DNA of 64,000 nucleotides. It comes from Prosthecobacter sp. Lineage in GTDB: Bacteria > Verrucomicrobiota > Verrucomicrobiia > Verrucomicrobiales > Verrucomicrobiaceae. This document shows positions 40,711 to 44,252 of the stretch, one piece after another. The notes below the pieces were generated by a model, which was not told the origin of the DNA, did no database searches, and worked only from the letters and a program-made list of their open reading frames with translations. The translations under genes were made by a program, and so were the position numbers. The stretch covers positions 42,158-106,157 of the forward strand of contig JAUREI010000001.1 in the NCBI GenBank assembly GCA_030827515.1, given 5' to 3'. The stretch's first letter is position 1; each line of letters begins with the position of its first letter.

Positions 40711-40743
40711 ATTCCGGCCCGTCTCCCGGGGCCTTCATGCACT

Positions 40744-40762
40744 AATGCAAATATTTTGCTTT
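40744..40762. promoter_or_regulatory. Putative Fur-family (Zur-like) operator 1: AATGCAAA-TAT-TTTGCTTT
   Basis: 8-3-8 inverted repeat with 7/8 arm complementarity (perfect GCAAA-TAT-TTTGC core), upstream of zinc-type genes. Confidence 0.6.
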
Positions 40763-40777
40763 TTTGCTTGCAGCGTT

Positions 40778-40796
40778 AATGCAATTGTATTGTATT
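40778..40796. promoter_or_regulatory. Putative Fur-family (Zur-like) operator 2: AATGCAAT-TGT-ATTGTATT
   Basis: 8-3-8 inverted repeat with 7/8 arm complementarity; same TAATGCAA half-site as operator 1; centre-to-centre 34 bp. Confidence 0.6.
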
Positions 40797-40814
40797 TGCA
40801 GCACCTCGCTGACC

Positions 40815-42071
40815 ATGAAGCACCGCCTCCTCCTTCTGAGCTCACTCTCTGCCTGCAGCCTGACTCTTCAGGGTCACGATCAATTCGAACAGTTGCGTCA
40901 GGGGCGCTACGCCTACACGCCCTTCACCGCCCTTTCTTCTCCCGTGGTCCTGCCCATGGACGGCAAGGTTGAAGAGGCCGACTGGCTGACAGGTTTGGAT
41001 GTCAGCGTGGCCGACCTGATCTTTCCCCATGTCCACATGGACACTGCCTATGGCACCGCCTCGCTCCCTCAGGAGGAACTTGCCGCCGGTCATCATGACC
41101 CGATTCGCCGCGACAAGTTCACCGTGCAGAATCTCGAATTCTCCCTTTCCGGCCGGCTCAATGAGTACAACGAGTTCTTTGTCACCTATGCCGGCCCGTT
41201 CGGCGAGGGGGATGTTTATGACGGAATTTTCGAGGAATGGTTCTGGAAGCTGAAGAACCTTCCGGGGGGCTTCGAAGTGCGCGGAGGCCGGGTTTACAAC
41301 CGCTTTGGCATCCAAAACACCTATCATGTTCACGGATTCGACTGGGTTGACCAGTATCTCGTCAACACGCGCATGTTTGGCGACGACTCCCTGACAACGA
41401 TCGGCGCCGAAATCACCTGGCTGGCCCCCCTACCCTGGACCTCGCAGTTCGATGTCGCCATCGGCGTCGCTCCCGGCCATGACGAGCACGATCACGGCGT
41501 CTTTGGTGGTCGCTTCAATCCCGATGAATCCCACTTTGCCGAGGACGAAACCGTGGCCGTCGCCAACTGGACCAACGTCTGGAACTGGAATGACTTCCAT
41601 CAGTTCCGTGGTGGCGTCTCCGGCGCCTGGGGTGAGAATCATTCAGGCTTCGACACCAGCGTTTACGGGGCACACTTTGAGTACCAGTGGCGCCAAAACG
41701 GCTTCGATCCCGGCGGTCGCTATTTCCGCGTCCGTTCCGAGGCGATGCTCAGCGATTTCCAGGTCGAGGATGAATTCGGCCTGACCGACCACCCGTCCGC
41801 CCAGCGCGACTTCGGCGCCTACCTCAGCCTGCTCTACGGATTTGCCGACAACTTTGAACTCGGCCTGCGCGGCGACATGGTCTCCGGCAACTGGGAGACC
41901 GGACAGGACACGCGATTCCGTGTCAGCCCCGGCCTCACTTGGTATGCCAACACCGCGCGCACCCTGCGCCTCCGCCTGCAATACAACTGTGACCAATCCA
42001 ACCAGCGCGGTACCGACCACTCCGTCTGGGCCCAATGCAGCCTGACCTGGGGTGGCCCGGAGGTGCGGTGA
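40815..42071 (+). CDS. Zinc-regulated-type outer membrane protein (beta-barrel)
   Basis: Signal peptide MKHRLLLLSSLSACSLTLQG; FTVQNLEFSLSGRLNEYNEFFVTYAG...GGFEVRGGRVYNRFGIQNTYHVHGFDWVDQYLVNTRMFGDDSLTTIGAEITWLAP; His/Asp-rich GHDEHDHG. Confidence 0.75.
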   Translation: MKHRLLLLSSLSACSLTLQGHDQFEQLRQGRYAYTPFTALSSPVVLPMDGKVEEADWLTGLDVSVADLIFPHVHMDTAYGTASLPQEELAAGHHDPIRRDKFTVQNLEFSLSGRLNEYNEFFVTYAGPFGEGDVYDGIFEEWFWKLKNLPGGFEVRGGRVYNRFGIQNTYHVHGFDWVDQYLVNTRMFGDDSLTTIGAEITWLAPLPWTSQFDVAIGVAPGHDEHDHGVFGGRFNPDESHFAEDETVAVANWTNVWNWNDFHQFRGGVSGAWGENHSGFDTSVYGAHFEYQWRQNGFDPGGRYFRVRSEAMLSDFQVEDEFGLTDHPSAQRDFGAYLSLLYGFADNFELGLRGDMVSGNWETGQDTRFRVSPGLTWYANTARTLRLRLQYNCDQSNQRGTDHSVWAQCSLTWGGPEVR

Positions 42072-42123: not shown

Positions 42124-43017
42124 ATGAAACTGACTCTACTGATCGTCCTGGCCGCCGTGTTCAGCCTGCCCGCCCAGGCCGCGCTCAAGGTCGCCACCCT
42201 GCACCCCCTGCTCGCCGACCTCGCCCGCCAAGTCGGCGGCGAGCGCGTGGAGGTGGTGGAAATTCTCAAGGCGGGTTCCGACATCCACCATTTCGAACCG
42301 GGTGGCCGTGACATTGCCGCGATGCGCGGCGCCCGCTACATCCTTGCCTGCGGCAAACATCTGGAATCGTATCTTGACAAGTTGCGCGACAGCGTGGGTT
42401 CAAGCATCGAGGTGATCGAGGTGGGCCGCACCATTCCCTCGCTCAAGATGGAACCTGGCCAGGAAATCTTCCTGTGCTGCCCGCACCATGCCCACAGCAG
42501 CATTGATCCCCACTGGTGGCACAGTGCCGACAACATGCGCCGGGCTGCGCGTGTCCTCGCCGCGGTCTTTGCCGAAGCCGACCCGGACGGCGAAAAGGCT
42601 TACGAGCATGCCGCCAAGGCCGCCGGCGACCGCTTTTCCCAGCTGAAAAAATGGGCACAGAACGAGATTGCGGCGATTCCGCGCGGCGATCGCAAGCTGG
42701 TCACGGCCCACGCCGCCTTCGGCTACTTTTGCAAGGAGTATGGTTTCAAGAGCCTGCCGGTTCTGGGCATCGGACGCAGCGACGACATCTCCGCCCAGTA
42801 CATCGCCCAGGCGATCCAGATCATCCGCGACAACCAGATTCGCGCCGTCTTTCCGGAGGACCAGGCCAATCCCAAGGTCATGGCGGAAATTGTCCGCAGC
42901 ACCGGCGCCAGAACCGGACGCCCGCTCATTGCCGATGGCACGGCAAGTGAGGCACACACCTTCGAGACCATGCTTGCGCACAACGTCCGCGCCATTGTGG
43001 AGGCCCTGAAACCCTGA
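42124..43017 (+). CDS. Metal ABC transporter substrate-binding protein (ZnuA/TroA cluster A-I)
   Basis: Signal peptide MKLTLLIVLAAVFSLPAQA; VATLHPLLADLARQVGGERVEVVEILKAGSDIHHFEP, CCPHHAHSSIDPHWWHSADNM, VTAHAAFGYFCKEYGF, PLIADGTASEAHTFETML. Confidence 0.92.
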   Translation: MKLTLLIVLAAVFSLPAQAALKVATLHPLLADLARQVGGERVEVVEILKAGSDIHHFEPGGRDIAAMRGARYILACGKHLESYLDKLRDSVGSSIEVIEVGRTIPSLKMEPGQEIFLCCPHHAHSSIDPHWWHSADNMRRAARVLAAVFAEADPDGEKAYEHAAKAAGDRFSQLKKWAQNEIAAIPRGDRKLVTAHAAFGYFCKEYGFKSLPVLGIGRSDDISAQYIAQAIQIIRDNQIRAVFPEDQANPKVMAEIVRSTGARTGRPLIADGTASEAHTFETMLAHNVRAIVEALKP

Positions 43018-43065: not shown

Positions 43066-43494
43066 GTGCGCGGTTCCCCTCCCATCCAGCTCTTCCTTCT
43101 GGCACTCGCCTTTGCCCTGCTGGCCTTTCCGCTCGCGCACCTGACAGGTGACGCGGAGGCGTCGGCACCGGTGTCCGCCGCAATGCCCGCGAAGTCAGAA
43201 CTTCCCGCCTTGATTCGCCTGCGTTTTGCCCACCCGCCCCGCTCGGTGAGCCTAACCCAGGAGGGTCGCGAACTGCTCACCGGTGCGGACCTGGCCACTT
43301 CACCCGTCGAACTGGAAGCGCGCCTGCGACTCGGAAGCGATGGCGAGGAGCTGCGACTGGAGGCCGCCTGGCCGGAGGGAACTCCCGACACGGCCATCAC
43401 CGTCGAAATCGAACCCGAGGGCCACGAGGCGCGCGAACAGACTCGCTGGTCCGTGGGACCGGAACTCAACGAACTGCTGCTCTTCCAATGGTAA
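43066..43494 (+). CDS. Hypothetical N-terminally anchored protein between SBP and ATPase genes
   Basis: 142 aa, one hydrophobic segment IQLFLLALAFALLAFPLA; its stop overlaps the next start codon (ATGGTAA). Confidence 0.6.
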   Translation: MRGSPPIQLFLLALAFALLAFPLAHLTGDAEASAPVSAAMPAKSELPALIRLRFAHPPRSVSLTQEGRELLTGADLATSPVELEARLRLGSDGEELRLEAAWPEGTPDTAITVEIEPEGHEAREQTRWSVGPELNELLLFQW

Positions 43495-44252
43495 AGCCCG
43501 AGGACCATGTCTGCTGGGGTGCCGGTCTCGCCCATCCCCATCACCACCGGCTGGAAGTGCGCGACCTGCAGGTCAGCTACCAGCGCGTGATGGCTCTTGA
43601 AGGCATCGGTTTCTCCAGCGAATGCGGACGCAGCATCGCCCTCATTGGCCCGAACGGCGCCGGCAAGAGCACTCTGCTCAAGTCCCTGGCGGGCCTCCTG
43701 CGGGCCGACGGGGGCAGCATCCTCTGGCGGGGCCGTCCGCTGACCCGCAGCAGCCACGAGATCGCCTATCTGCCGCAGCGCGGAGAAGTGGACTGGAATT
43801 TTCCCATCACCGTGCGCGGTCTGGTGGAAATGGGCCGCTACCCCAACCTCGGCTGGTGGCGTCCGTACTCGCGCCATGATGGCGACATCGTCCAGCGCGC
43901 CCTGCGCGCCATGAACCTGCTGGACCTTGAAGACCGGCAGATCAGCGCCCTCTCCGGCGGCCAGCAACAACGCGCCTTCATCGCCCGTGCACTCGCCCAG
44001 GAGGCCCATGTCCTGCTGCTCGACGAACCCTTCACTGGCCTCGACAAGCCCGCCCAGGAAAACCTGGCAAGGCTCTTCCGCGAACTGACCGCCGAAGGCC
44101 GACTCCTGATCGCCAGCCACCATGACCTGCAGACCGTCGGAGGGATCTTTGACGATGTCCTGCTCATCAAGCGCCGACAGATTGCCTTTGGCTCGGTGGC
44201 CGGGGCGTTCACGAAGGCCAATATCGAACTCGCCTACGAGACGGCGCCCTGA
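43488..44252 (+). CDS. Metal-type ABC transporter ATP-binding protein (ZnuC/MntB-like)
   Basis: LIGPNGAGKSTLLKSLAGLL Walker A, YLPQRGEVDWNFPITV, LSGGQQQRAFIARALAQEAHVLLLDEPFTGLD. Confidence 0.93.
   Translation: MVKPEDHVCWGAGLAHPHHHRLEVRDLQVSYQRVMALEGIGFSSECGRSIALIGPNGAGKSTLLKSLAGLLRADGGSILWRGRPLTRSSHEIAYLPQRGEVDWNFPITVRGLVEMGRYPNLGWWRPYSRHDGDIVQRALRAMNLLDLEDRQISALSGGQQQRAFIARALAQEAHVLLLDEPFTGLDKPAQENLARLFRELTAEGRLLIASHHDLQTVGGIFDDVLLIKRRQIAFGSVAGAFTKANIELAYETAP

Follow-up and report, generated by a model that had tools for sequence, protein, structure and literature searches.

Two closely spaced palindromes precede a metal-uptake operon in a genome of Prosthecobacter sp., and the locus raises the question of whether they are operators and, if so, which regulator reads them. 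The window that we analyzed is a stretch of 64,000 nucleotides located on a 106-kb contig (the assembly comprises 4.05 Mb in 315 contigs). A sequence-only reading had proposed tandem 19-bp palindromes, AATGCAAATATTTTGCTTT at 40744-40762 and AATGCAATTGTATTGTATT at 40778-40796, each with 7/8 self-complementarity in an 8-3-8 arrangement, with a common opening TAATGCAA, a start-to-start distance of 34 bp, and a location in an AT-rich patch of GC-rich DNA. All these features were confirmed; the patch (40711-40814) has 47% GC, compared to 64% for the GC-rich DNA. We consider it very likely that these palindromes serve as tandem Zur operators of the metal-uptake operon.

The 19-bp unit was correctly centered, but its length was wrong. 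In orthologous promoters, the full operator motif is TTAAYGCAA-N5-TTGCRTTAA, i.e., a conserved unit of 23 bp (9-5-9), of which the outer TT..AA had been missed. The candidate upstream operator, box 1 (CTAATGCAAATATTTTGCTTTTT), therefore spans 40742-40764, and the candidate promoter-overlapping operator, box 2 (TTAATGCAATTGTATTGTATTTG), spans 40776-40798. Using a scoring matrix trained on orthologous promoters only, with the window excluded, we obtained 27.5 bits for both boxes and 11.3 bits for the runner-up within the window. To avoid circularity, we also searched 29 orthologous promoters for motifs de novo, without a seed, again leaving the window out. This search yielded TTAATGCAAaatAnTTGCAaTTA with a log-likelihood of 343, compared to 73-78 in shuffled promoters, and the de novo motif, when applied to the window, picked exactly positions 40776 and 40742, with box 2 as the best site.

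An AT-rich intergenic patch with a GC content this far below that of the GC-rich DNA could in principle contain palindromes by chance. The original pattern, allowing up to two mismatches, occurs at only two places in the 64 kb; shuffling gives an expectation of 0.12, and 0 of 100 shuffles reached 4. The probability per position of the boxes is 1e-10 at the base composition of the window and 3e-8 at 60% AT; thus, the AT-rich patch does not explain the pair, and the expected frequency is negligible even at 60-70% AT. At least one box is present in all 30 promoters orthologous to that of the first gene of the operon, and at least two boxes in 22 of them, whereas control stretches of equal length contained 0 boxes. 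This conservation, together with the recovery of the motif with the window held out, rules out chance palindromes, the probability of which we regard as practically nil.

The arrangement of the boxes is consistent with operators placed over a promoter. In the relatives, most boxes of a promoter are 32-34 bp apart, which corresponds to roughly three turns of the helix. In nearly all promoters from the same genus, TTGACN or TTGATG ends directly before box 2, so that box 2 fills the spacer between the -35 and -10 elements, as expected for a Zur operator. By analogy, the putative promoter hexamers of the window are TTGCAG (40768-40773) and TGTATT (40791-40796), separated by 17 nt on the forward strand (40768-40796). 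Because these hexamers are weak matches and a consensus promoter scan of the window made no call, the promoter position was taken from the relatives. Pairs of boxes at -35 and -10 have been described in the promoters of S. coelicolor znuA and B. subtilis yciC (PMC6103462).

The operon behind the boxes is encoded on the forward strand. Its first gene (40815-42071) encodes an outer-membrane beta-barrel protein with a signal peptide and His-rich loops that matches no Pfam or NCBIfam family and is related in sequence to no solved structure. The predicted model has an all-beta secondary structure at low confidence (mean pLDDT 47). Orthologues were found in 42 of 96 relatives, and the protein of the closest named record, Verrucomicrobiaceae bacterium UBA2429, is 82% identical. 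Next are a ZnuA-type metal-binding protein of an ABC transporter (42124-43017; PF01297, 1.2e-60), a small membrane-anchored protein of no known family (43066-43494), and an ABC transporter ATPase (43488-44252; PF00005), for which the nearest NCBIfam models are Deinococcus MntA and AztA. The small anchored protein is conserved in this position, flanked by the binding protein and the ATPase, in several genera. The permease of a ZnuABC-type transporter is missing from the window operon; its orthologue is located on another contig (C93:10999-11769), with no box before it. In one related locus (L142), the same gene order is followed by an ABC-3 permease. In another (L192), the boxes are followed by the outer-membrane protein, ZnuA, the small protein, the ATPase, the permease, and Zur. 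As to the metal, the transporter models, all of which stay below their cut-offs, do not tell zinc from manganese. We infer zinc as the cargo from the co-regulated genes.

These co-regulated genes were identified by scanning related genomes with the motif. Throughout the genus, we found 129 matches with up to three mismatches, compared to 43 for a reversed control; with up to two mismatches, there were 37 matches versus 2 for the control in 41 genomes (counted by eye from the table). Across the order, 124 of 241 genomes have a match with up to two mismatches; outside the order, few genomes match with one mismatch. As the sequence-only reading had anticipated, the motif recurs before zinc-uptake and zinc-sparing genes across Verrucomicrobiales, namely znuA, COG0523, hisI, TonB-receptor and merC genes, so that non-recurrence can no longer be held against a Zur box. 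The genes behind the boxes encode three kinds of COG0523 GTPases, ZnuA, TonB receptors, HisI, MerC, a FeoB-like protein, and an unclassified protein of ~200 aa. For 86 distinct box places, those fetched by the DNA pattern alone, 45 adjoin COG0523, ZnuA, HisI or Zur-like genes, and 55 (45 + 10) adjoin any gene of the zinc set, both being raw tallies. The former is the fairer figure because some members of the set (the FeoB-like, outer-membrane and ~200-aa proteins) owe their definition to these loci or to the window. MerC and TonB genes are found among the remaining places.

Several unnamed proteins are found at such loci. The ~200-aa family has a QQMFFWG motif and no Pfam or NCBIfam match (L174:1524-2129, L096:4042-4746, L204:4370-5092); it repeatedly adjoins boxes, COG0523 genes and a second Zur-like gene, and is a candidate zinc-starvation protein. 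A FeoB-like GTPase-gate protein of ~550 aa (L103:2356-4023, L100:2337-4001, L097:15619-17265), encoded behind the same boxes, is a candidate zinc transporter. In two genomes, a box-like site (L069:1501-1523, L104:8454-8476) precedes genes that encode a small protein resembling a lipoprotein and an ATPase of the ABC type.

The metal ambiguity of the transporter bears on the regulator. If the operon encoded a manganese transporter, the boxes could be operators of a manganese regulator (MntR/DtxR); Deinococcus MntA is the closest model to the ATPase, and the genome has one gene of the DtxR family. However, the same box precedes COG0523 and HisI genes, known from other phyla as genes of zinc starvation (PMC2770081), the Zur gene belongs to the L192 operon, and an unsystematic look revealed no link between the DtxR gene and a box. 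We therefore consider a manganese regulator very improbable, and Zur remains the preferred reader of the boxes.

It should be noted that the genome encodes three Fur-family proteins. Judged by the nearest solved relatives, the protein encoded on contig C276 is PerR-like, that on C129 is Fur-like, and that on C218 (C218:3283-3804; PF01475 over the cut-off) is Zur-like, with the Zur proteins of Synechococcus (7ne9) and Streptomyces (7vo0) as its best solved relatives. The C276 and C129 genes are set among other genes. Nearly every genome of the family has a Zur of the C218 type. Boxes were found in 36 of 69 genomes with Zur compared to 1 of 16 genomes without it (P = 6e-4, an optimistic value because the genomes are related and phylogeny is ignored). 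The single exception is a Zur-negative genome with three boxes (G064). The firmest link is physical, Zur being the last gene of the boxed L192 operon. In several genomes, a second Zur-like paralogue is found in COG0523 clusters near boxes.

With three Fur-family genes in the genome, a likeness among the boxes of this family, and a FeoB-like GTPase gene behind the same boxes, it is conceivable that the boxes serve another paralogue, either the ferric Fur of C129, responding to iron, or the PerR-like protein of C276. Against this, the targets are a zinc-sparing set (COG0523, ZnuA, HisI) with no siderophore genes, and the L192 operon ends in Zur, not Fur. Three genomes with matches to the Fur type that lack Zur (G051, G077, G080) have no box at two mismatches. 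In a small-genome genus of a sister family, there is at most one Fur-family protein, which is PerR-like, and no excess of boxes (4 matches versus 4 for the control over 43 genomes, counted by eye); PerR is therefore an unlikely reader of the boxes. Both the C129-type Fur and Zur are missing in this genus, so that it cannot by itself separate Zur from Fur. Taken together, a Fur or PerR reader appears improbable, though less so than a manganese regulator. Zur is strongly favored, because the L192 operon ends in Zur and genomes lacking Zur almost always lack boxes.

The presumed sensor of the C218 Zur was analyzed as well. Its structural Cys4 site is retained, all four Cys being invariant, as expected of a FUR domain. 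None of 30 orthologues deviates at His120, Asp122, Cys139 or His159, and these residues are kept in 48-49 of 49 sequences once distant orthologues are added. An alignment to the Streptomyces Zur, read by eye, indicates that three of the four canonical site-2 ligands are missing. The Zur of Synechococcus WH8102 (SynZur, 7NE9) binds its sole sensory zinc through Asp77, His79, Cys95 and His115, and also lacks three of the four canonical site-2 ligands (PMC9337993); thus, canonical site 2 is not required of every Zur. The residues His120, Asp122, Cys139 and His159 match this AspHis2Cys site, and the missing site-2 ligands and the Cys4 site are further likenesses. In contrast to SynZur, the first ligand pair is swapped in order (Asp/His), the C218 protein has an extra His-rich N-terminus (HHHxHHxxC), and its operator and phylum are not those of SynZur. 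The likenesses suggest that the C218 Zur has a sensor of the SynZur type.

In this genome, the window operon is the only target that we found, a narrow regulon for a Zur. The scans were based on patterns with up to three mismatches; since they relied on patterns only, weaker sites may have escaped. The sole COG0523 gene of the genome (C91) has no box nearby, and neither the zur gene nor any of its 29 orthologues has a box before it. A Zur site before zur is a feature of some lineages and is not required. The proposal of a lineage-specific Zur box is supported by the recurrence of the motif and by the presence of a Zur gene. A box does accompany a Fur-family gene in G501. In a genome of the same class outside the order, a Fur-family gene (L240:1005-1472) lies ~30 bp downstream of a box, and it is possibly an autoregulated Zur.

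Other matches in this genome (C38, C78, C254 and C277:91243) were dropped, as they scored below 15 bits. Two perfect 14-bp palindromes, AATGCAATTGCATT, at C292:9278-9323 (locus L017:6283-6330) fit the original pattern; this site was not counted as a Zur target because it precedes a PrlF-type antitoxin gene (NF007429). We read the ORF downstream of this gene as the YhaV toxin, and the palindromes are probably the antitoxin gene's own operators. Contig C292 itself is possibly foreign to the genome.

The Zur boxes of E. coli, Bacillus, actinobacteria, Caulobacter and cyanobacteria have been reviewed (PMC6103462; Caulobacter in PMC4176598). The system described here resembles them in having palindromes over promoters of zinc-uptake genes, 23-bp palindromes having been reported, and in having znuABC, COG0523 and TonB receptors as targets. 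By sequence, however, TTAAYGCAA-N5-TTGCRTTAA differs both from the motif of E. coli (TRWNAYRWTATAWYRTNWCA; PMC6103462) and from sites in Caulobacter, for example GATGTTATATCATAACAAT (PMC4176598). In proteobacteria, Zur sites are likewise established in front of COG0523 and HisI paralogues (PMC2770081); compared to those clusters, the verrucomicrobial ones add the outer-membrane protein, the FeoB-like GTPase-gate protein and the ~200-aa family. In the open-access papers that we consulted, we found no zinc-repressor motif for Verrucomicrobiota.

We infer DNA binding, zinc as the co-repressor and cargo, and repression as the sign of regulation, and the following model can be proposed. A dimer of zinc-loaded Zur (C218:3283-3804) would bind each 23-bp box; box 2 would cover the -35/-10 spacer, with box 1 immediately upstream and facing the same side of the helix, and the occupied boxes would keep RNA polymerase off the promoter of the operon of the outer-membrane protein and the znuA-type gene. 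Under zinc shortage, Zur would lose its zinc and dissociate from the boxes, allowing production of the outer-membrane channel and the components of ABC uptake.

In a broader context, we somewhat favor the view that Verrucomicrobiales have their own zinc-starvation code, which would combine a distinct 23-bp operator, a Zur with a SynZur-type site as its only sensor (so far shown only for cyanobacterial Zur), and a regulon that includes unrecognized zinc-acquisition proteins, i.e., the outer-membrane barrel, the FeoB-like GTPase-gate transporter and the ~200-aa QQMFFWG family. With the operator in hand, sequence data alone would suffice to list the zinc regulon across a large order that is for the most part uncultured, and the motif nominates unnamed proteins for zinc import. 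These results also suggest that the unusual zinc sensor of cyanobacteria is more widespread.
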